Source: Cyanobacteriota bacterium
GTDB taxonomy: Bacteria > Cyanobacteriota > Cyanobacteriia > PCC-6307 > Cyanobiaceae
Reading direction: 5' to 3'
Length of the DNA stretch: 64,000 bases
NCBI GenBank assembly: GCA_026389335.1
Contig: JAPLIB010000151.1
Location: 1 to 64,000 of the forward strand
Shown: in pieces, positions 10,976-64,000 of the stretch
How positions within the stretch are numbered: position 1 is the stretch's first letter
Layout of the letters: each line of letters begins with the position of its first letter
Program-made: the position numbers and the translations under genes
The notes under the pieces: generated by a model
Databases searched by the model: none
What the model saw: the letters and a program-made list of their open reading frames with translations, nothing else
Told to the model about the DNA's origin: nothing

Positions 10976-11788
10976 TCATTGCAGCAGTCCTTCATCCACC
11001 AGCGTCTGCAACCGTTCGAGCACCTCGGGCTGCTCCAGCTGCTCGAGGGCCAGGCGGGCCTCGTCGCGCACGCTGGGCTCGGCATCGTGGAGCATGGCGT
11101 GCAACAGCGATTCCACCACCTCCTGCTGACGGGGTTCAACCAGATCGGCATAGAGGCGGCCCAGCCCCCAGGCGCTGTTGCTGCGCACCGCCGGCTCACT
11201 GTCGATCCGCAGGCTGAGCAGCAGCTGGGAGGCGGCCGGATCGGCCTTGGCCGGCCCCGTACCGCCGGCATCCGCCAGCGAGCTCGCCGCCCAGAGGCGC
11301 ACGGCCGCCACATCCACCTGCAGGGAGCGAATCAGGGGATTGAGCACCGGAGCCTCGGGGTAATTGCCCAGGCTCCAGGCCACGGCCTTGCGCACGTAGC
11401 CGTTGTCATCGCCGGCCAGCAGGGCCAGCAAGGGCTCAACCCCGAGCGGATGGGGGTTGCGACCGAGGGCATAGACGGCACTCATCCGCAGAATCGGACA
11501 GCTGGCCGCCAGCAGGGGCAGCAGCAAGGGCACGGCCCGGGGATCCCGGTGTTCGCAGAAAATGCGCAGACCCTGCAGGCGCTGCTCCTGGGAACCGCTC
11601 AGCCAGGCGATGCCGGCATCACATTCGGCGGCCACCGCGTGGGCGCTCGGCGCAGCGGCATCGAGCTCATCAAGCGGGTCGCCCAGCAGCTCCTGCGCCA
11701 GCTCCAGGGCAAGCACCTCCGGATCGAGCACCAGATCGCCGGAGCTGTCAGGGAAAGGCAACGGATAAGGCTGGGCGTCGTCCGGCAT
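10976..11788 (-). CDS. HEAT-repeat protein
   Basis: Repeated helical units (RMSAVYALGRNP..., YVRKAVAWSLGNYPE..., VRLWAASSLADAGG..., VRSNSAWGLGRLYAD..., VRDEARLALEQLEQPE). Confidence 0.85.
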   Translation of the reverse strand: MPDDAQPYPLPFPDSSGDLVLDPEVLALELAQELLGDPLDELDAAAPSAHAVAAECDAGIAWLSGSQEQRLQGLRIFCEHRDPRAVPLLLPLLAASCPILRMSAVYALGRNPHPLGVEPLLALLAGDDNGYVRKAVAWSLGNYPEAPVLNPLIRSLQVDVAAVRLWAASSLADAGGTGPAKADPAASQLLLSLRIDSEPAVRSNSAWGLGRLYADLVEPRQQEVVESLLHAMLHDAEPSVRDEARLALEQLEQPEVLERLQTLVDEGLLQ

Positions 11789-28690: not shown

Positions 28691-29146
28691 TCAGGAGATC
28701 GGGAAAAAATCAGCGGTTGGGGCGGCACTGATCACCAGCTCGCCACTCAGGTGGGGCTCAACCCAGGCCCACCAATCCTTGAAGTGGCTCGTCTCCAGGT
28801 GATCCTTGAGGGCCAGCTCCGAGGGCCAGGTCTCCACAAAGACATAAGTGCCCGGATGTTCGATATCAGCGTTGCAGGAATAGCTGGTCACCGGGTCCTT
28901 GGCACGGGTGATGGCAGCGAGGGCCAAGGTCCGACGTTCGAAGTCCTGCTGTTCCGATGGATTGAGGTTCATCGGCAGTCGTCCCACGACCCGAATCGGC
29001 TCAGCCGTGTGTTCCACACCCGGCGCCGCCAGGCTGGCCGTCGGCTGGACCAGCAGCAACAAGGCCGCCATCACCAGACTGGACAGCAGCCAGCCCAGGG
29101 AAGCCGCCGCGCGAGACCCTGGAGAGCGGGAAGAAGAACTGGCCAT
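28691..29146 (-). CDS. exported antibiotic-biosynthesis-monooxygenase-like (ABM, ferredoxin-like fold) protein
   Basis: Signal-peptide-like N-terminus; VVGRLPMNLNPSEQQDFERRTLALAAITRAKDPVTSYSCNADIEHPGTYVFVETWPSELALKDHLETSHFKDW. Confidence 0.7.
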   Translation of the reverse strand: MASSSSRSPGSRAAASLGWLLSSLVMAALLLLVQPTASLAAPGVEHTAEPIRVVGRLPMNLNPSEQQDFERRTLALAAITRAKDPVTSYSCNADIEHPGTYVFVETWPSELALKDHLETSHFKDWWAWVEPHLSGELVISAAPTADFFPIS

Positions 29147-46589: not shown

Positions 46590-47477
46590 TCAAGCGGACA
46601 AGCCCGGATCGGGCTGCTGGAGGGCCTGAACCAGATCCAGACGGGCCAGGACATCGGCTCCTGCAGACACGAGTTTCTCCCCCTGCAGCGCCCCCAGACC
46701 GGCACCACTGGCGATCCAGTCGGGGGAGCCTGAGGGCAGCCATTGGCGCAGCTTTTCGACACTGCGCAGCTGTCGGGGCCAGTGAAAACAGCTGCGCCGC
46801 CGCAGGGGAGCGAGCTGCCGGGGTGCCAGCGGCACCAGCAGCCGACCACAGAACAGCCCATCCACCAGCCCGCCGCCAGCGGCAACGCTGCTCCCCGTGC
46901 TGATGGCGTCAGCGGCGAGGCGCACGTGCACGACGCAGGCGCCTGGACTCGGTCCCGGTGTCCACAGCAGGCGGACCCCCTGGGACAGCGTCCAATCCAA
47001 GGCAAACGTGGTGAGCAAAGCCACACCGGGCAGCAGATAGGCCTCCTGTTCCTGAACCAGCACCGGCCAACCCAACGCCTCCTGCCAGCGCCGGCAGCGC
47101 CCATGGCCGTCGCGACCGGTGAGCACGATCCAGCCGGAGCGGTGATGGCAGCGCTCCTGCACCAGCGCCAGATTGGCCCGGGTGAACGCCGGCACGTCTA
47201 TCAGCAGATCGCCAGCCCCCACCTCACACAACCAGGCACTTCCCCCCTGGGTATCCCGGTTGGGCGCGAACAGCCACAGCCCCGCCTGCACGCGCTGGGG
47301 GGGGCGTCCCTCCTCAATGGCCGAGCCGGTCACGGCGATTCCCTCGAGATCCCCCCATTGAACCCAGCCGCCGGCGGCTGCCGTGCCCACGAGCTCGGGG
47401 TCGGGCCGCGGGCTTAGCCTGGGTGAAATCTCTCCCGTGCCTCGTGTCGCCGATCCGGATCGGACACCCCTGGCCAC
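46590..47477 (-). CDS. MBL-fold-like hypothetical protein (start uncertain; long ORF overlaps glgX 5' end)
   Basis: GDLLIDVPAFTRANLALVQERCHHRSGWIVLTGRDGHGRCRRWQEALGWPVLVQEQEAYLLPGV resembles a degenerate metallo-beta-lactamase-fold protein. Confidence 0.6.
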   Translation of the reverse strand: MARGVRSGSATRGTGEISPRLSPRPDPELVGTAAAGGWVQWGDLEGIAVTGSAIEEGRPPQRVQAGLWLFAPNRDTQGGSAWLCEVGAGDLLIDVPAFTRANLALVQERCHHRSGWIVLTGRDGHGRCRRWQEALGWPVLVQEQEAYLLPGVALLTTFALDWTLSQGVRLLWTPGPSPGACVVHVRLAADAISTGSSVAAGGGLVDGLFCGRLLVPLAPRQLAPLRRRSCFHWPRQLRSVEKLRQWLPSGSPDWIASGAGLGALQGEKLVSAGADVLARLDLVQALQQPDPGLSA

Positions 47478-49525
47478 TGGGGGCCTCGCCCACCGCCACC
47501 GGCGTCAACTTCTCTGTCGTCGCCCCCCTGGCCACCCGGCTGGACCTGCTGCTGTTCGCCCATGGCCAGGCCAGCGAACCGGAGCAGGTGATTGAGCTGG
47601 ATCTGCAGCACCGCTCCGGCGACCATTGGCATGTGGAGGTGGAAGGGGTCGGCATCGGCTGTTGCTACGGCTATCGGGCCTTCGGTCCGCTGCAGAGCGG
47701 CAGCCACGGCTTCAATCCGTCCAAAGTGCTGCTCGATCCCTGCGCCCGGGCCATCGCCGGCTGGGAGGTCTACCAGCGAGGCGCAGCGATCGGGGCCGTC
47801 CCCAACACCGCCAGCTGCCTCAAGGGGGTGGTGACCGAGCGGGATCGCTTCGATTTCGCCAGCGCCCCCAGGCCTCGCCATCGCTGGCAGAAAAGTGTCA
47901 TCTATGAACTGCATGTCGGCGGCTTCACCCATGGTCCGGACTGCGGTGTCAGTCCGGATCGTCAGGGCACCCTGCTCGGCCTGATCGAGATGCTGCCGGC
48001 TCTGCAGGAGCTGGGGATCACGGCGATCGAATTGCTGCCGGTGATGGCCTTTGATCCTCAGGATGCCCCCGCCGGTCGCTTGAACCACTGGGGCTACAGC
48101 CCCTTGAGCTGGATGGCGCCCCATCCGGGCTATCTGGTCAGCGACGACCCGTTGCAGGGCCGCCAGGAAGTGCGCCAGCTGGTGGCGGCTTGCCACCGCG
48201 CCGGGCTCGAGGTGTTGCTCGACGTGGTCTACAACCACACCACCGAAGGCAGCCAGGCTGGCCCCACACTCAGCTGGCGTGGCTTCGGCGACTCCCTCTA
48301 TTACCACCAGAACAGCCGCGGCGATTATCTGGATGTGAGTGGCTGCGGCAACAGCATCGCGGCCAACCGTCCCCTGGTGCGGCACCTGATTCTGGAATCG
48401 CTGCGCTGCTGGGCCGTGGAACTGGGCATCGACGGTTTCCGCTTCGATCTGGGCATCGCCCTAAGCCGCGGCGAAGAGCTGGCGCCCCTGGAGACGCCTC
48501 CGCTGTTCGAAGCGATGGAGGCCGACCCGGAGCTGAGCGACCTCAAGATGGTGAGCGAGCCCTGGGACTGCGGCGGCCTCTACCGCATGGCGGACTTCCC
48601 GGCCCGGCGGGTCGCCAGCTGGAACGGGCGCTTCCGCGATGACCTGCGCCGCTTCTGGAAGGGCGACGACCGCAGTGTCTGGCCCCTCGGCCAGCGGCTT
48701 TCGGGCAATCCCGATCTGTTCGGAGGCCAGGCGGCCCCGATGGGCCGCACGATCACCTTCCTCACCGCCCATGACGGCTTCACCCTGGCCGATCTGGTCA
48801 GCTACGACCGCAAGCACAACCTGGCCAATGGCGAAAACGACCGCGATGGCGACAACCACAACAACAGCTGGAACCACGGCGTTGAAGGGCCCACCACGGA
48901 TCCAGCGGTGAACGCCCTGCGCGAGCGCCAGATCCGCAATCTGCTGAGTTCGCTGCTGCTGGCCCCTGGGGTGCCGATGCTGCTGATGGGGGATGAGGTG
49001 AAACGCAGTCAGGGGGGCAACAACAACACCTGGTGCCAGAACAACCCCCTGGGCTGGATGCACTGGCAACCCGATGCCGAGGACCTGGCTTTGCGCCACT
49101 TCGTCCGCCGCCTGATCGCCCTGCGCCAGCAGCTGGCCAGCCTGATCAATCCGGAGCAGCCCCTACCCGACACCCCCCAACGCCGCAACCATGAACAGGG
49201 CCAGCTCTGGCGGGAATGGCATGGCGTGGAACGGCAGAAGCCGGACTGGGCCAGCTGGTCCCACTGCCTGGCCTGGAGCCTGCACGATGCCCAGCACGGC
49301 CCGCTGCTCTGGTGCGGCATGAACGCCTTCTACAAGGCTATGCATTTCGATCTGCCACCCACCGCCACCGGCTGGTCGCGACTGATCGACACGGCCCTGC
49401 CGGCCGGGGAAGATCTGCCGCAGACGCCTGAGCCCTGGCTGCCCTCGGGCGTGCCCCTGGAGAGCCGCAGCCTGATCCTGATGGTGGCGGCGCCCCTGGC
49501 CGGCACGATCAGCCTGCCGGACTGA
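47423..49525 (+). CDS. glgX: glycogen debranching enzyme / isoamylase (GlgX-like)
   Basis: GATATGVNFSVVAPLATRLDLLLF, VIYELHVGGFTHGPDCGV, VLLDVVYNHTTEGSQAGPTLSWRG, DGFRFDLGIALSRGE, MLLMGDEVKRSQGGNNNTWCQNN. Confidence 0.93.
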   Translation: MKSLPCLVSPIRIGHPWPLGASPTATGVNFSVVAPLATRLDLLLFAHGQASEPEQVIELDLQHRSGDHWHVEVEGVGIGCCYGYRAFGPLQSGSHGFNPSKVLLDPCARAIAGWEVYQRGAAIGAVPNTASCLKGVVTERDRFDFASAPRPRHRWQKSVIYELHVGGFTHGPDCGVSPDRQGTLLGLIEMLPALQELGITAIELLPVMAFDPQDAPAGRLNHWGYSPLSWMAPHPGYLVSDDPLQGRQEVRQLVAACHRAGLEVLLDVVYNHTTEGSQAGPTLSWRGFGDSLYYHQNSRGDYLDVSGCGNSIAANRPLVRHLILESLRCWAVELGIDGFRFDLGIALSRGEELAPLETPPLFEAMEADPELSDLKMVSEPWDCGGLYRMADFPARRVASWNGRFRDDLRRFWKGDDRSVWPLGQRLSGNPDLFGGQAAPMGRTITFLTAHDGFTLADLVSYDRKHNLANGENDRDGDNHNNSWNHGVEGPTTDPAVNALRERQIRNLLSSLLLAPGVPMLLMGDEVKRSQGGNNNTWCQNNPLGWMHWQPDAEDLALRHFVRRLIALRQQLASLINPEQPLPDTPQRRNHEQGQLWREWHGVERQKPDWASWSHCLAWSLHDAQHGPLLWCGMNAFYKAMHFDLPPTATGWSRLIDTALPAGEDLPQTPEPWLPSGVPLESRSLILMVAAPLAGTISLPD

Positions 49526-55450: not shown

Positions 55451-57526
55451 ATGAGCACAAACGAAATGCCGAACGAGGCCGGCCCAGGCAGAGCAAGATA
55501 CCGCAGCAAGCCAAGCATAAGAAGAAGAATAGCCGAAAAAATACGAGCAGAAAAAAGGACGCTACGGGGCCAGCTAGTCCTCAGTATATGGATAGGATTA
55601 GCGGGAATATTTGTACCACTTAACATAATTGATGGCATTCATGACGTGAATGTATCAGCTCAACGCACTGAAGCATCCCTGTCATTCTCGGGAAGCTTTG
55701 TATACCTGAGAGTCAAGAAATGGAGAAAAGAAATAAGAACACTACTCGAAACATTGGCCCTCAGCGGCTCCGTCAGAAACATGAACGAGAAGGAAACGAA
55801 GGCTCTGTTCGAAAAGACCAATGCACTGTTCCCATACAGATCACTCAGGCTCTGGGATGATAACGGGGACTTAGTTGCCGGGACTCATATAGACAAGGAG
55901 ATCGACAAAGGCTGGGCACTGCTTCACTCGAACTACATCCAATCAAGAGCAGGACGGCCAAGCTACGACATATACGGGAGATGCCTATCAGGCAACCCAT
56001 GCTATGTTGAAAGCATCCCCGTATACGCAGAAAAAACAAGAGAAGACTCGAAGAGACCCAACACGCCAATTGGTGTCATGAGCATTTCTATCGATCTTGC
56101 GGACACAGGCAAGGACTCTGAACTGACTGGAGCCTACGACATGGTAGCCAGAATACTTAGCGGCGGAGAGGCAAGAAAGTCTGATCATTCACCGTGGAAA
56201 ACGCCAATTTCACTACAGAATAAAGATTACGATGGCATGGAAATATTAATAGTAAGCAAAGAAGGTTATGTCATATTCCCAACGTCAGGAATAAATGATT
56301 ACATATCGCTGCAATCGCCAAAAGAGATCGCCAAAGGGCCATGGGGCCCGCTAGTAAAGGCGGGACTGAAAGCAACCAAAGAAGGAGACTTTAATGAAAT
56401 AAAAATAGAAGGAAAAGACTTTTTTGCATACACAAGAATCATTGATTCCGACTGGAATCTCGTCGCAATAAGCGACAAAAACTCAAGCTATCACTACGTT
56501 TACGACCAAATTTCCGAACAAATTATTTATCAATTGATAACTCTTATTGGTCTGACATTCGTAGCAATTATTATAAGCAGAAAAGCGGCGCAGCCGATTT
56601 TACTTGCAGCGACGGTTGTTAGGGAGTTTAGCAGAGGGAATTTTGAAGCGCGGATTAGCACTGTTAGGACAGATGAGATTGGACAGCTGCTCAAGGACAT
56701 CAACCAGACGGGGAGCAATCTTCGAGAGTTACTAATCAGTAAAATAAAACACGCTGCCACGGATGAACAGATTAAAACCGCAAAGAGTATACAAAAAAGT
56801 TTTATTGTTGACACACTGCCAACAACGAGAAAAATCGAACTAGTTGGAAGCTTTGACCCAGCATATGAAATTGGTGCCGACTGGTACGACGCCCTTGACC
56901 TTGGAGAAGTCACCTATATGATCATAGCTGATGTCTGCGACAAAGGTATCGCTTCAGCACTTTTTATGTCAGTTTTTCGCAGCCTGATTCGATATTCACT
57001 GTTAGACAAGAAAAACGAAGTTGGAGCAGAAGGGGTTCAGCTAACCCTGAAAAAAGTTGTAGCGCAAGTCAATGATTACATGGCGGCGAACCATGGAGAA
57101 TCGGCAATGTTTGCAACACTCTTCCTTGGCGCTTATAGCAGTGAAACCGAAGAGCTAAGCTATGTTTGCGCTGGGCACGAAATACCCGCCATAATTCGAT
57201 CCAAAGGAGTAATCGAAAAGCTAAAACCAACCGGTCCAGCAATCGGAATATTCACGAATACCGAGTACAGCGCAAACACAATCAACATGAGCGCCAACGA
57301 GATACTATTCATGTACACCGATGGGCTAGTCGATGCTCGATCGCCTTCAAACGCCTCCTGGGGAATAGATAGACTCTACAAAGTACTGGAAGATATCGAG
57401 CCCAAAGAAATAACAGCCAAAGAACTCATGAGCCGCGTATCAAGCGAAGTGAAGCACCATCGCCAAGATGCTGATCAATTCGACGACCTTACACTTTTAG
57501 TCATGAAGATAAACAAAACCGACTAG
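55451..57526 (+). CDS. membrane sensor phosphatase: extracytoplasmic Cache-like domain + HAMP + SpoIIE/PP2C
   Basis: Two TM segments (LSIWIGLAGIFVPLNIIDG; IIYQLITLIGLTFVAIII), HAMP-like RKAAQPILLAATVVREFSRGNFEARISTVRTDEIGQLLKDINQ, then AYEIGADWYDALDLGEVTYMIIADVCDKGIASALFM...LFMYTDGLVDAR. Confidence 0.92.
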   Translation: MSTNEMPNEAGPGRARYRSKPSIRRRIAEKIRAEKRTLRGQLVLSIWIGLAGIFVPLNIIDGIHDVNVSAQRTEASLSFSGSFVYLRVKKWRKEIRTLLETLALSGSVRNMNEKETKALFEKTNALFPYRSLRLWDDNGDLVAGTHIDKEIDKGWALLHSNYIQSRAGRPSYDIYGRCLSGNPCYVESIPVYAEKTREDSKRPNTPIGVMSISIDLADTGKDSELTGAYDMVARILSGGEARKSDHSPWKTPISLQNKDYDGMEILIVSKEGYVIFPTSGINDYISLQSPKEIAKGPWGPLVKAGLKATKEGDFNEIKIEGKDFFAYTRIIDSDWNLVAISDKNSSYHYVYDQISEQIIYQLITLIGLTFVAIIISRKAAQPILLAATVVREFSRGNFEARISTVRTDEIGQLLKDINQTGSNLRELLISKIKHAATDEQIKTAKSIQKSFIVDTLPTTRKIELVGSFDPAYEIGADWYDALDLGEVTYMIIADVCDKGIASALFMSVFRSLIRYSLLDKKNEVGAEGVQLTLKKVVAQVNDYMAANHGESAMFATLFLGAYSSETEELSYVCAGHEIPAIIRSKGVIEKLKPTGPAIGIFTNTEYSANTINMSANEILFMYTDGLVDARSPSNASWGIDRLYKVLEDIEPKEITAKELMSRVSSEVKHHRQDADQFDDLTLLVMKINKTD

Positions 57527-58557
57527 AGTTAGCAAGAAACAGAGTGTTTGCCAAAAATTCTTCAAAGGCACTGTTGTCTAAGCCATATACGTTCGGAACA
57601 CAGAGCGAGCATGCACCTTCTCTGCGCCCTAAGCCTGCTTTAATGAAACCGATCTCGATCAGATCAACGTCCTCAACGAGATCCAGGGCATCCGAATGTG
57701 GCGAAGAGATTGTAATCGCGCTTGGTGATTTCTACTAATAGCTATGTGCTCGGGACCCTGGGAAGCTGCCAGCACCGGCGAAATCTGGAGCGTTTCGCTC
57801 GGTGCCACAATGCGGTGCTCCACAAGGAGCTGGGGATGAACTGAAGCGGCCAGCGATAGATTCCGTCCAGTGGCTCCGCCACGCTGGCCTACGGCAAGGT
57901 GGACGCAACATCCTTCTGCAAGTAAACATGATGGCACTATGCACCGCCATCAACGACTGAACAATCCACCCAGACCTACGCCTGAGAATCAGATGAGGAT
58001 CACTTATTCGGCGAGGATTAAATAGGCGGCGCGTACGTAGTTGACGGCGGACAATCACTAGCGAGCAGTACTCAAGCAGCTGATAGGCAAACTCAATGGG
58101 GCGGGTTTGCTGAACCAAGCCGAGGATGAGCTGCAGAAACAGCAACCAATATTCAACGACTCAGGGAGCAGGGGGACGACAACATCCTGACAGCAAAATA
58201 CCAAATAAAAATCCTGGACCGCAAAGGTCGTAGCCACTTCCAGGGGAAACGGCAGATCCCACACATAGCAACGAATCAGGGGCCAGCAACCGTAGTTAAA
58301 TCAGCTGGAAACAAAGGCGAATACAATGAACGGCGCACATCAACGAATTCTGGTTAGTCAACAGCTAGATCATCGAAGTGAGCGAGACCGGTAGCTACAA
58401 AGAAGCCAAATACAGCCACCAAAAATCTGCTGAGGAGATGAGATTTCAATCGATCCAAACAAGGATGCAGTGCCGTGATGGATCACACAACGGCACTGCT
58501 AGCAATAGCTCGGAAAAACCGACCACGAAGCGGATCTAAAGCGTTGGCTTAAACCTG
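57527..58557. other. non-coding or decayed tract, no convincing intact gene
   Basis: Only short overlapping ORFs with low-quality translations between the phosphatase and the convergent cupin gene. Confidence 0.5.
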
Positions 58558-59436
58558 CTAAGACTTGGGATAGCAGGCCTCGCCGCGATCAAACAAGTCC
58601 TGTAATTCAGACAAGTGATCACCGGTAGCAGCAACAGGACCTCGAATGTTTCGATAATCAGCCCGGCCAACAAAACGCCCAGTTGGATCATGGGGTACAC
58701 CCCAGAGAGCAGTCTGCAAAGTTGTCGCCTGTGGACCAGGAAGATTCAAGGGTTTCGTCGAGCCATCAACATTATTGACACCATCAAACCAATTTGTCAC
58801 ACCATTTGCAGGAGTCCAAACGTTATAAAAACCACGGATTGACTGCTTTGCCTGTGATTCATTGTGCCAAAAATGAACAGTTCCTTTTGGAGAATAAGCG
58901 ATATCACCTTTCTTGAGAGTTATAGAACCCATCACGGGAACAGATGAATTAATGCCGGGCAGCTGACCAGGCTGAAGCGGATTATACTCTTTAGTTCCGT
59001 AAATCCGAAAATCAGAATCCTCAGTAACAAAAAACCATTCAGAGGAAGCAAAGTGGAAGTGAGGAGGGGGACCAGCATCATAAGGAGCGATAGTCTCGCT
59101 CAACTGGTAAAGCCCACAAGTGTCTTCAGGGGTCCGCAGCATAACAAGCTGATCGCCTCCCCCGGTTTGAAAAATGCGTGGCTTAGCAAGAAATTTCGGC
59201 ATAACAACATGTGTTTTGCTGTCCGGAAAATCGTAGACAATCCGCTCTGTAACACCTTTATTAATCAAAGGCGTGCGGGAAAAGCCAAAAACCTCAAAGA
59301 ACTGTGCGTAAACGGGCGAACCAATAGTTGCAGCAACTAGCAACCCGAACGCGAGAATCAATAAAAAGAACCGACGAGTTCCCAATAGCACCCTCAAACG
59401 GAATCTAGCAGTTAAACTTGAAGAAAAAATTGTCAT
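58558..59436 (-). CDS. secreted cupin-domain protein (cupin A)
   Basis: Signal peptide FFLLILAFGLLVAATIGSPVYA; APYDAGPPPHFHFASSEWFFVTEDSDFRIYG ... LKKGDIAYSPKGTVHFWHNES: HxH(x)nE...H cupin motifs. Confidence 0.85.
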   Translation of the reverse strand: MTIFSSSLTARFRLRVLLGTRRFFLLILAFGLLVAATIGSPVYAQFFEVFGFSRTPLINKGVTERIVYDFPDSKTHVVMPKFLAKPRIFQTGGGDQLVMLRTPEDTCGLYQLSETIAPYDAGPPPHFHFASSEWFFVTEDSDFRIYGTKEYNPLQPGQLPGINSSVPVMGSITLKKGDIAYSPKGTVHFWHNESQAKQSIRGFYNVWTPANGVTNWFDGVNNVDGSTKPLNLPGPQATTLQTALWGVPHDPTGRFVGRADYRNIRGPVAATGDHLSELQDLFDRGEACYPKS

Positions 59437-59931
59437 GTACTGGCAGTCAAATTAAAGAATAAAAGGAGGTGATGCGAGTGAAAGGCAGAAAAGATAAGCC
59501 ACCGCCACAAAGAAGTTCATGACGAATCATGGAGGGACAGAGCAGGAGCAAATTGTGATACTGGCAGCACATCAGTCAACCCCGTACTCAACTACTCCAC
59601 AAGGCGGATTTCCTGCACAATTCGGTCAGACACATCATTCTCGATGAATAGCCTGAGAATAGCAGGAACTGATAAGACGGTGAAACAGACACAGCGCCGA
59701 CTGGGTTGATGGCAAATCAAGGAAGCAGTATACAGCAGAACAAGACTTGCGACCGTGTCCAGATGTTGCAACACGAAATCTTTCTCGAGGGACGACAACA
59801 ATCTGAAAGACTCAGAAAAGGGATAACGAAAAAAGCATGGATTAACACACGAAAAAGGGAGAATGCTGACGATCACCAACAAAAAGTCTTGTATAACATT
59901 AAAATAAACAGAACACGAGAAGGGGAGAGGA

Positions 59932-60111
59932 GTGACGGACCGTAAAGGAGCCATGAAGTACATCCGAGAGTCATCGAATACCAAACAAAGAACTCTCACA
60001 GTGAAACTATCGGAACCGACATGGAACAAATTCCGAGCACTGACGATCCAGCCTCCAAGTGATTTAGGCGATGCGCTGATTCAAGCTAGCCCGGTCAGAG
60101 CAAGCATATGA
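59932..60111 (+). CDS. small ribbon-helix-helix-like protein (59 aa, GTG start)
   Basis: (M)TDRKGAMKYIRESSNTKQRTLTVKLSEPTWNKFRALTIQPPSDLGDALIQASPVRASI*; strong purine-rich SD (aggggagagga); ATGA overlap with the next ATG at 60108. Not in the track. Confidence 0.4.
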   Translation: MTDRKGAMKYIRESSNTKQRTLTVKLSEPTWNKFRALTIQPPSDLGDALIQASPVRASI

Positions 60112-60268
60112 ATGATAATGACAGCACAGAGTCTACTGAGGAAACAAGAGACTTCAAAAGAAAAACCAAACACTGCAGCCCGACCCGAAATCAAGCTTTA
60201 AGTTTTGCAACATTATCAGCAACGGTCGCCGTCATAGCTAACATAGAAAAATCCTTGTTGAACAGCAA

Positions 60269-60631
60269 ATGGGAGATTCAATCCCCGCAAATGCAGTGCT
60301 TGATGATGGTGATCTGCAGCAAGGCCTCAACAGCATCCATCCAGCATTTGGCGATCTGTGCACCCGCGTAGCAGGGGAGCTTTGGGGAACGCCACTGATA
60401 GACCAGGCCACAAAGGCCTTAATTACTATAGCCATAGATGTAGTCAACCAAGGACTTGATGGGCCGGGTTCCCCCTTCGAGGCTCACATCCGAATGGCAA
60501 TTAAGCAAGGCGTGACAATCGAGCAGATCGAAGAACTGCTACTTTTTACGTGTGCGTACGCGGGTTTCAATAAGGCAGCTGCTGGATTCGGAAAGCTCGC
60601 CGAAATCAAGCAAAGACTGGAAATGGACTAA
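60269..60631 (+). CDS. carboxymuconolactone decarboxylase-like protein
   Basis: HPAFGDLCTRVAGELWGTPLIDQATKALITIAIDVVNQGLDGPGSPFEAHIRMAIKQGVTIEQIEELLLFTCAYAGFNKAAAGFGKLAEI. CMD fold pattern; the usual CxxC is not evident. Confidence 0.85.
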   Translation: MGDSIPANAVLDDGDLQQGLNSIHPAFGDLCTRVAGELWGTPLIDQATKALITIAIDVVNQGLDGPGSPFEAHIRMAIKQGVTIEQIEELLLFTCAYAGFNKAAAGFGKLAEIKQRLEMD

Positions 60632-60670
60632 AAGATTAATAAACAACGCCACCACCCCGAACGACACACA

Positions 60671-61411
60671 ATGATCACAAAAATCATCAGCACTCTAATG
60701 GCTTGCTGCCTAAGTGCCATTTTGTCGCTAAGCTTGCTTGGAGCAAAACCTCAAGCAGTTTCTGCGCAAACATTAAATCTGGCATTTCCTGACTACACGC
60801 CAAGTCCAGAGCCAGAATTAATCGTTGGACCACCCGGAGAGCAGTTTACGTTTACTCGTACTGGCAGAAACACTGGCAATCGCTTCACCATGGCCGAAGC
60901 ACTAGTGCCACCTGGTTCAGGTCCACTTCCCCACTTCCACGAAGACTATGATGAATGGTTTTACTTCCCGAATGGCGGAATAACTCTGTTCGTAGATCCC
61001 AAACACACTTACAGTGATTTGAGCAAGATTCCAAATCAAACGGCACCTGGCGCCGACATCGAACTAATAGAGACAAAGCCAAAAAGTCTATATTATGTTC
61101 CTCGTGGACACGTCCATGGATTTTACAATAGCTCCAATGTCCCCGTCCAGATGACTTTTGTTTGGGCCCCAGAGAGAATCACCGATTACTTTCGAAATAC
61201 CGGCGAACAGGTCAAAGCCTTCCCGTCAGACTTCAAAGTAGATGCAACTCGGCTAGAATCGTTTGTCAAGGACGCGCCAATCTATGGAATTGACCAAAGC
61301 CAATATTTCATGCAATACATTCATACGATTAAACCGGCAACGGATGCGACGATCGCCCTCGACGATCACGTCGCTGGGCTTAAGGATTTACTGGCGACTC
61401 CGTTAAATTAA
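60671..61411 (+). CDS. secreted cupin-domain protein (cupin B)
   Basis: Signal peptide MACCLSAILSLSLLGAKPQAVSA; GSGPLPHFHEDYDEWFYFPNGGITLFV ... YYVPRGHVHGFYNSSNVPVQMTFVWAP. Confidence 0.88.
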   Translation: MITKIISTLMACCLSAILSLSLLGAKPQAVSAQTLNLAFPDYTPSPEPELIVGPPGEQFTFTRTGRNTGNRFTMAEALVPPGSGPLPHFHEDYDEWFYFPNGGITLFVDPKHTYSDLSKIPNQTAPGADIELIETKPKSLYYVPRGHVHGFYNSSNVPVQMTFVWAPERITDYFRNTGEQVKAFPSDFKVDATRLESFVKDAPIYGIDQSQYFMQYIHTIKPATDATIALDDHVAGLKDLLATPLN

Positions 61412-61520
61412 AGACCTTGCCGAGCACAAACATGCCAGGAAAAAGTAAGGCCAATACATTCAAAAACTCAAATACTATGTGACAAAAAGCTTAAAATTGT
61501 ACACCATCGCAAAGGATTCC

Positions 61521-61703
61521 ATGTCTGTATCCACCCTCGCAACAACTCTGATTGGAGGATTCTTGGTGGGTTTTGTCTTTTCAATTTTTAAGCTCCCATT
61601 ACCCGTGCCGCCGTTGGCAGGTCTCATCGCTGCTGGAGCCTGCTTGGGGGGATCTGCCACCTACCAAGCAGTACACTCGATGCTAGGAAGAGGAGTTCGA
61701 TGA
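61521..61703 (+). CDS. XapX-domain small membrane protein
   Basis: MSVSTLATTLIGGFLVGFVFSIFKLPLPVPPLAGLIAAGACLGGSATYQ; G-hydrophobic repeat plus P-x-P-x-PP XapX pattern. Confidence 0.75.
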   Translation: MSVSTLATTLIGGFLVGFVFSIFKLPLPVPPLAGLIAAGACLGGSATYQAVHSMLGRGVR

Positions 61704-61780
61704 GCTGAGATTTTTGCTATTTTATGTAAAGCCATTCAAAATCCAAGACGATCCCTTTCCCCCAACCACATTAAAAACCA

Positions 61781-62368
61781 ATGACAACCTCAAAAATTTT
61801 AGTACTCATCGAAGAGCACTACGACGAAACCGAATTCAACGTGTTCAACACATTTTTTCCTGGCAACAATTACGAAGTAGAATATGCATCCTATCTTTGG
61901 GATAATGAATCAATAGAATTTGAAGGAAATGATAAACAAAGCAAAGTCAAAGTCAGTCTGTGTGTTAGCAAAATTGATCTCAACGATTACAAAGGACTGA
62001 TTCTGATTGGCGGGTATGCCATGGATCGCCTTCGCTATGAAGCAAAGCTTTCAGGTGGTGAGAATAAGGCGCCAGCAGTTGAACTACTAAGGCAAGCAGT
62101 AAAGAGAATGGATGCTGGAAAACTTGCAATTGGCACAATTTGCCATTCACTTTGGCTATTCTGTGCAGATCCCAAGCTTCTGAAAGGACGAATGGTTACC
62201 TGCGCACACAACATCGTTTGTGATGTTGAGAATGCTGGCGGAAAAGTTATCATTGAAGATGGAGAAACGGTAGAAACATTTAGCGATGGACTACTAATTA
62301 CAGGTCGCCATCCAGGTGCAGTAGATGCATTCAACGACCTATTTCTTGAAACAATCCAAAAACTCTGA
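61781..62368 (+). CDS. DJ-1/PfpI superfamily protein
   Basis: KILVLIEEHYDETEFNVFNTFF...LILIGGYAMDRLRYE...KLAIGTICHSLWLFCADPKLLKGRMVTCAHNIVCDVENAGG...LLITGRHPGAVDAF; C-H nucleophile pair. Confidence 0.88.
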   Translation: MTTSKILVLIEEHYDETEFNVFNTFFPGNNYEVEYASYLWDNESIEFEGNDKQSKVKVSLCVSKIDLNDYKGLILIGGYAMDRLRYEAKLSGGENKAPAVELLRQAVKRMDAGKLAIGTICHSLWLFCADPKLLKGRMVTCAHNIVCDVENAGGKVIIEDGETVETFSDGLLITGRHPGAVDAFNDLFLETIQKL

Positions 62369-62413
62369 AACTTAATTCCTCACACTTAGGATTAAAAGAC
62401 AAAAGCATCCACC

Positions 62414-64000
62414 ATGAATTGCCTCGACTTCCCTTTTTCAGATTTGATCTCAGGCTACGTCACTGGCTATAATACTTTAGAAAGGATTGTTGACCTGACA
62501 ACATCTGATGGGCGAGAATATCGAGGCAAGCTTACCGATAATACCTATGCGAAACAAACACAAAATCTGCAAGAAGACTGGATAGATCGCGGCCAAGAAC
62601 TCGACAGACTACTAGTTCCCGGCCAAATGGTATTCGTATATGGAACTTTCTTTCCTGAGGAAGCCGTAAGCTTCGAAGTAAATTACATTGTATTTGCTGG
62701 CGAAGGGAGCGACGATTATCGTTACAAAGAAAAGAGTTGGTGGATAAGCCAAATTGACTCAATTGCTGCATCTTATCTCAAATGGCAATTCAATGCACCT
62801 AACGATGAGATTAATTACAAAAATTACAGAACACTAATTAGCCTTACGGGAGGGAAAAAAGACTCAGACTATCTACAGGAAACAGACACCATATCTCGAA
62901 TGGTGTATGGCATGGCTAGTGCCTATATGTTAACAGGCAAGGATGAATATCTCGAAGCCGCTGAAAAAGGAACAGATTATTTACGTCAAAAAATGCGGTT
63001 TGTTGATACAGATACAGGCCTTATTTATTGGTACCATGGCCAAAAGGTCAGCGCCGGGGGGCAAGAGCAAAAGTTATTGGTTTCTGAGTTTGGAGATGAC
63101 TATGACTGCATTCCTGCATATGAACAAATTTACGCCCTAGCGGGACCTATACAAACATACAGGTTGAACGGTGATCCGCAAATTCTAGATGATGCATCTA
63201 AAACAATCGACCTTTTTGACGAATGCTTTCGAGATAAGGATAAAGGGGGATATTATTCTCATGTGCATGCAGTTACGTTAAGCGCTCATGACGACTCCTT
63301 GGGCCGCAATAAAGCCAAGAAAAACTGGAATTCTGTAGGAGACCACGCACCGGCATATCTAATTAATTTATGGCTTGCAACTGAAGAGCCGCGCTACAAA
63401 GACATGCTAGAAGATACATTTGATACAATAGCCAAACATTTTCCTGACTACGAGAATAGTCCCTTCGTGCAGGAAAAGTTTTTTGACGATTGGTCAAAAG
63501 ATCAAACATGGGGCTGGCAACAAAACCGCGCAGTGGTTGGCCATAACCTGAAGATTGCATGGAATTTGATGCGTTTTCAGGCGATAAATCCTAAAGAAAT
63601 TTATCTAAAACTAGCTGAAAAAATCGCCACTTTAATGCCTGAAGTGGGCTATGATCTCCAACGATTCGGCTGGTATGATGTTGTGGAGCGTGTTCGTGAA
63701 TCCGGTCAAAAGTTTCATCGCTATGCTTGGCATGATCGCAAAGCATGGTGGCAACAAGAACAAGGTATTCTAGCCTATCTAATTTTACAAGGACATATTC
63801 CATCGAACCCTAAATACAAGCAGTATGCGGATGAGTCCGCGGCATTTTATAACGCATTTTTTCTTGATCACAATGACGGCGGTGTCTACTTCAATGTTCT
63901 TGCCAATGGCATCCCTTTCTTAATGGGTACCGAGCGATTCAAGGGTAGCCACTCAATGAGCGCATACCATTCTACTGAGCTATGCTTCCTCTCAACAGTC
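62414..64000 (+). CDS. AGE (N-acylglucosamine 2-epimerase)-like protein with extra N-terminal domain; truncated by window end
   Basis: Open for 529 codons from ATG 62414 with no stop: MNCLDFPFSDLISGYVTGYNTLERIVDLTTSDGREYRGK...ETDTISRMVYGMASAYMLTGKDEYLEAAEKGTDYLRQKM...WGWQQNRAVVGHNLKIAWNLMRF...KAWWQQEQGILAYLI. Absent from the ORF track because no stop lies in the window. Confidence 0.85.
   Translation, partial: MNCLDFPFSDLISGYVTGYNTLERIVDLTTSDGREYRGKLTDNTYAKQTQNLQEDWIDRGQELDRLLVPGQMVFVYGTFFPEEAVSFEVNYIVFAGEGSDDYRYKEKSWWISQIDSIAASYLKWQFNAPNDEINYKNYRTLISLTGGKKDSDYLQETDTISRMVYGMASAYMLTGKDEYLEAAEKGTDYLRQKMRFVDTDTGLIYWYHGQKVSAGGQEQKLLVSEFGDDYDCIPAYEQIYALAGPIQTYRLNGDPQILDDASKTIDLFDECFRDKDKGGYYSHVHAVTLSAHDDSLGRNKAKKNWNSVGDHAPAYLINLWLATEEPRYKDMLEDTFDTIAKHFPDYENSPFVQEKFFDDWSKDQTWGWQQNRAVVGHNLKIAWNLMRFQAINPKEIYLKLAEKIATLMPEVGYDLQRFGWYDVVERVRESGQKFHRYAWHDRKAWWQQEQGILAYLILQGHIPSNPKYKQYADESAAFYNAFFLDHNDGGVYFNVLANGIPFLMGTERFKGSHSMSAYHSTELCFLSTV

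Follow-up and report, generated by a model that had tools for sequence, protein, structure and literature searches.

The window, i.e. the whole stretch of 64,000 nt analysed here, covers the beginning of a contig of 77,796 bases (JAPLIB010000151.1) from a bacterium of the family Cyanobiaceae. Close to its right end lies an AT-rich block for which a preliminary description had listed seven genes. Six of them were confirmed with family support by searches against Pfam and NCBIfam. The exception was an RHH-like ORF (59932-60111), which matched no Pfam or NCBIfam model and had no relative among 201 genomes of the family (including ten other members of the genus) or in the fetched loci; for these reasons the proposed RHH regulator was dropped. 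The last gene, encoding a protein of the AGE superfamily, is truncated by the window end at position 64000 (the full protein comprises 610 aa), and the run of genes on the same strand continues beyond it on the contig. The features of the block and its surroundings are as follows.

55451-57526, plus strand: PP2Ca, membrane sensor phosphatase with HAMP and SpoIIE/PP2C domains (Pfam SpoIIE, E 9.6e-41; HAMP, E 3.4e-7)
58558-59436, minus strand: secreted cupin CUP1, divergent from the operon (Pfam Cupin_1)
60269-60631, plus strand: CMD-family protein, in the place of slr1853 (Pfam CMD, E 2.7e-12)
60671-61411, plus strand: secreted CucA-type cupin (PDB 2xl7, Sll1785/CucA, E 1.6e-28)
61479-61703, plus strand: XapX-like small hydrophobic protein, conserved in relatives (TIGR03510, E 6.7e-6, just under the curated cut-off)
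61781-62368, plus strand: DJ-1/PfpI protein, in the place of slr1854 (Pfam DJ-1_PfpI, E 7.9e-18)
62414-64246 (contig), plus strand: AGE-superfamily protein, in the place of slr1855 (Pfam GlcNAc_2-epim, E 2.5e-13)
64249-64575, plus strand: first STAS protein (Pfam)
64575-66692, plus strand: GlgX/isoamylase (Pfam)
66735-67067, plus strand: second STAS protein (Pfam)
67074-67541, plus strand: RsbW-type ATPase (Pfam)
67538-69553, plus strand: SpoIIE/PP2C phosphatase (Pfam)

PP2Ca shows 53% identity to the phosphatase in the equivalent place in genome G278. Between PP2Ca and CUP1, about 1 kb (57527-58557) contains no recognisable gene and has no relative in the fetched islands.

The icfG operon and its conservation

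Two STAS proteins, a GlgX/isoamylase, an RsbW-type ATPase and a SpoIIE/PP2C phosphatase are encoded in one run with the AGE and DJ-1 proteins. The intergenic gaps from the CMD gene onward range from -4 to 77 bp, which fits a single predicted operon. According to Pfam the kinase, STAS and phosphatase domains are complete, and the STAS proteins carry the SSAG motif. Because the content and order of the genes (CMD, DJ-1, AGE, STAS, GlgX, STAS, RsbW, PP2C) match those of Synechocystis slr1852-slr1861, the genes of the block are, as judged from this correspondence, the front (5′) half of the cyanobacterial icfG operon. The preliminary description had recognised no named pathway here, a view that does not hold once the partner-switching genes are included. 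The system is already known, and the layout found in the window is a rare variant carrying a gene related to cucA.

The content and role of the icfG operon are treated in PMC12329169 and PMC8670252, which present it, for Synechocystis, as a partner-switching cascade tied to the control of inorganic carbon and glucose. In PMC12329169, slr1856 and slr1859 are assigned to anti-sigma antagonists, slr1857 to an isoamylase, slr1860 to the IcfG phosphatase, and slr1861 to a kinase and anti-SigC factor; PMC3564720 names slr1853 as the gene of a CMD protein. Work by others in Synechocystis has shown that the RsbW-type kinase Slr1861 phosphorylates STAS proteins and that the IcfG phosphatase dephosphorylates Slr1856.

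The window operon and Synechocystis icfG (slr1852-slr1861/1862) share the complete series from CMD through DJ-1, AGE, STAS, GlgX, STAS and the RsbW-type kinase to SpoIIE/PP2C in one run. The slr1854 product is the DJ-1 protein of that series. In contrast to Synechocystis, the genes of a CucA-type cupin and a XapX protein stand between CMD and DJ-1, upstream there are an additional sensor phosphatase and a cupin gene in divergent orientation, and the slr1852-like gene is absent from the window operon and located on another contig of the same genome (C48).

At E 1e-30 or better, the AGE protein was found in 37 of 388 genomes of the phylum, corresponding to 30 of 142 genera. Its neighbours form a conserved set in relatives, in contrast to the scatter by which, according to the preliminary description, an incidental collection would be recognised. 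Within 8 kb of 40 AGE genes, GlgX-type genes were present in 36 and DJ-1 genes in 33 cases, CMD genes in about half (19-21) and STAS (23-24) and RsbW genes (22) in more than half, all of these counts being lower bounds because the simple gene caller missed some ORFs. Within the family, all nine loci of the icfG type had this core, except that one gene of L075 was overlooked by the gene caller. Furthermore, GlgX adjoins AGE in loci without the regulators (L020, L024, L029, L032 and L035-L040), so GlgX and AGE are also associated independently of them. A tree of the AGE proteins placed the icfG copies of picocyanobacteria in one fully supported clade and regulator-free copies from the same family (G346, G328, G295 and G261) in a separate one.

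The surroundings of the core vary. Beside it, G404 harbors two consecutive ORFs of 516 aa with the same N-terminus (L076 677-4251), by eye like a duplicated transposase. In G478, the stretch upstream of the core (L077 713-6729) encodes proteins that look by eye like another DJ-1/PfpI protein and a TPP-dependent decarboxylase, thus different accessory genes in the same place.

The AT-rich island and its origin

The low-GC block of the preliminary description is real, but its extent had been understated. The island comprises 14.7 kb (approximately 55300-70000) with a GC content of 44.9%, compared to 65.4% in the rest of the contig. Near 55.2 kb the GC fraction declines from about 0.64 to 0.53; it drops below 0.50 soon after and returns to more than 0.52 near 70 kb. 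Third-position GC is between 0.34 and 0.50 in island genes and between 0.60 and 0.85 in four contig genes outside. The island starts with the HAMP/SpoIIE phosphatase and includes five further genes past the window end. Directly to its right, a large PAS-GGDEF diguanylate cyclase is encoded on the minus strand (contig C114 70118-73054, corresponding to L004 15118-18054), and this gene is also present in L002.

L002 stems from an independent MAG and shows the same operon, with cupin and AGE proteins 96-97% identical to those of the window. Because this set of genes recurs there together with the PAS-GGDEF gene at the right flank, the AT-rich block is unlikely to result from contamination or misassembly.

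Ten other genomes of the genus lack the AGE gene, and an AGE protein of this type (at least 76% identity) occurs in 9 of the 201 family genomes. The five hosts G000, G278, G374, G291 and G209 differ in their flanking genes, except for generic matches between two of them. Together with the low GC content in hosts of higher GC, the differing flanks fit horizontal spread. Base composition and gene context thus suggest such a spread, and the island was probably acquired. An empty site could be demonstrated in none of the same-genus genomes because the flanking genes are not conserved: matches of the DUF6880 flank protein within the genus reach at most 58% identity, and the FIST-like flank protein has one match in one same-genus genome, unlinked to the DUF6880 match. 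A tRNA-linked insertion was considered as well, and no tRNA gene adjoins the island in the window.

The CucA-type cupin and its companions

Both cupins of the block had been described as secreted, which our analysis supports; the plus-strand protein is in addition a homolog of CucA, a relationship that had been missed. It matches Sll1785/CucA over residues 46-229, carries the HxH...E...H pattern of the metal site and has by eye a predicted signal-peptide-like N-terminus. CUP1 matches CucA weakly (E 1.8e-4) and over residues 77-194 only. It has relatives of its own in L003, G278 and G096, with 60-67% identity for the former two. An alignment of 13 cupins covering both types showed the HxH...E...H pattern without exception. 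The TRRFFLL motif of CUP1 was considered as a Tat signal, which would point to manganese loading of the kind known for MncA; this idea was rejected since L003, G278 and G096 do not share the motif. CucA itself is characterised in PMC4192464 as a periplasmic, Sec-exported copper cupin.

An arrangement with cucA and a XapX-like gene inside the icfG operon was found in only two of the 201 family genomes and in two partial MAG loci. CMD and XapX genes adjoin the CucA gene in the window and in G278, L002 and L003; of these, L002 begins within the CMD gene and the fetched stretch of L003 contains neither DJ-1 nor AGE. A XapX-like gene beside CucA is also seen in L003, L008, L022, L027 and L028. In Synechocystis, the cucA operon (sll1783-sll1785) is divergent from icfG, whereas the CucA-type gene of the window is inside the icfG operon. 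Common to both is an exported CucA-type cupin with the HxH...E...H pattern adjoining the icfG genes. The Synechocystis-like loci L022, L027 and L028 contain two CucA-type cupins divergent from icfG, accompanied by an ABM protein, a xylose-isomerase-like TIM barrel and an alpha/beta hydrolase; in L060, which continues L027, the CucA-type copy reaches E 1.1e-112 against Sll1785. Unlike the sll1783-sll1785 region, the window island lacks the companions of the ABM, TIM-barrel and alpha/beta-hydrolase types. In G278 and L003 such companions are located between CUP1 and CMD, and no relics of the CUP1-to-CMD genes of G278 were found in the window.

Contig C48 of the window genome harbors an alpha/beta hydrolase, a TIM barrel, an slr1852-like protein, HbpS-like proteins and a polysaccharide deacetylase near a tRNA-Gly gene. 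What the window shows thus seems to be a portion of a larger module, complete in G278, which in this lineage may have been split or may never have been joined. The set on C48 (L065 887-11722), which includes three HbpS-like proteins as well as WD40-like secreted proteins and ends near tRNA-Gly (11628-11698), consists of companions of cucA genes in relatives. Within the window and outside the AT-rich island, the minus strand at 28691-29146 encodes an ABM-like protein that probably carries an export signal and scores 131 bits against its L003 counterpart. A second GlgX-type paralog (477 bits) is encoded there on the plus strand at 47423-49525. A second CucA-type cupin of the same genome, 45% identical, is found on contig C89 (L050 6915-10500) behind another SpoIIE/PP2C sensor phosphatase.

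To our knowledge, CucA has no established role. A natural operon joining cucA with the icfG enzymes leads to the specific hypothesis that CucA acts in the same pathway as these enzymes. The window, G278 and L003 all have CucA between CMD and XapX in the same orientation, and L022, L027 and L028 carry the CucA and icfG sets as divergent neighbours. Moreover, the presence of CucA tracks that of AGE: by genus, their co-occurrence amounts to 6/7 against 30/142 (p 3e-4), while the genome-level figure of 8/10 against 37/388 is inflated by shared ancestry. Knockdown of cyabrB1 reportedly induces both the icfG and the sll1783 operons, to go by the title of Hishida et al. 2024. All these observations speak against an explanation that we consider unlikely, namely that the genes of the CucA-type cupin and XapX came along as passengers, forming a copper- or metal-related unit that ended up in the icfG operon and shares no function with it. 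Such a unit would accord with the CucA-type cupins away from icfG in G148, G191 and G312, with the second copy on C89, and with the fact that the CucA gene is missing from most icfG loci. As most icfG loci do without it, the cupin is not essential to the switch.

Proposed function and the AGE protein

With a probability of roughly 70%, we regard the locus as a picocyanobacterial version of icfG with a built-in CucA-type cupin, most likely a carbon-status switch joined to a set of sugar-processing enzymes. What this analysis itself provides are the gene order, the families and the domain content. In the proposed mechanism, an extracytoplasmic cue would be perceived by one or both membrane PP2C phosphatases, which would in response remove the phosphate from STAS1 and/or STAS2; following the example of Slr1861 and SigC, dephosphorylated STAS would then capture RsbW, whereby a sigma factor might be freed. 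On the metabolic side, GlgX may debranch glycogen or a similar glucan and the AGE protein may rearrange a sugar derived from it, with DJ-1 and CMD handling reactive side products. In the periplasm, the exported cupins could convert a related compound in a metal-dependent manner, and an extracytoplasmic-to-cytoplasmic route, as had been proposed, is possible. We know of no reaction for the enzymes encoded upstream of the icfG regulators.

Among the earlier ideas, that of an unusual sugar being processed agrees best with GlgX as the partner, and oxidative or carbonyl stress as the main role received no specific support. That the stretch ahead of the STAS genes serves mainly in carbonyl or peroxide detoxification, with DJ-1 as deglycase or glyoxalase, a peroxidase-like CMD and the cupins as metal proteins, is quite improbable: the DJ-1/PfpI and CMD families include such enzymes and PMC3564720 tabulates slr1853 and slr1854 among genes responding to ethanol, but the most constant partner of AGE is the GlgX-type enzyme (36/40 loci), a group of loci keeps GlgX-AGE without regulators, and the icfG phenotypes described in PMC12329169 concern inorganic carbon and glucose.

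The nearest solved relative of the AGE protein is a cellobiose 2-epimerase (PDB 5zig, E 3e-7), with which it shares the Pfam GlcNAc_2-epim fold family and both histidine motifs of the superfamily. In contrast to 5zig and its relatives, it has an N-terminal extension of about 100 residues and GHNxK instead of GHxxE, and with 24.1 of 800 bits it remains far below the EpiA equivalog cut-off. The GHxxE glutamate matters for catalysis in the AGE superfamily, so its replacement by lysine makes the ordinary epimerase reaction doubtful, which counts against the preferred reading of the locus, and the name epimerase, assigned by homology, should be held loosely. GHNxK was found in 38 of the 39 aligned AGE proteins with letters at this position, and this conserved motif provides a single residue bearing on whether the protein is an epimerase. 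Tentatively, the icfG AGE proteins might form a subfamily with a different activity, marked by the conserved lysine, which joins GlgX, DJ-1, CMD and the exported CucA-type cupin in an undescribed sugar pathway spanning periplasm and cytoplasm under control of the partner switch. If this were true, CucA would itself be one of the pathway's enzymes.

AlphaFold models of CUP1 and AGE, calculated from two-sequence alignments, reached mean pLDDT values of 34.6 and 35.8, respectively, and were discarded. In genome G191, the AGE gene is present in two pieces about 2.2 kb apart (L041 8283-12530), as if interrupted by an insertion.
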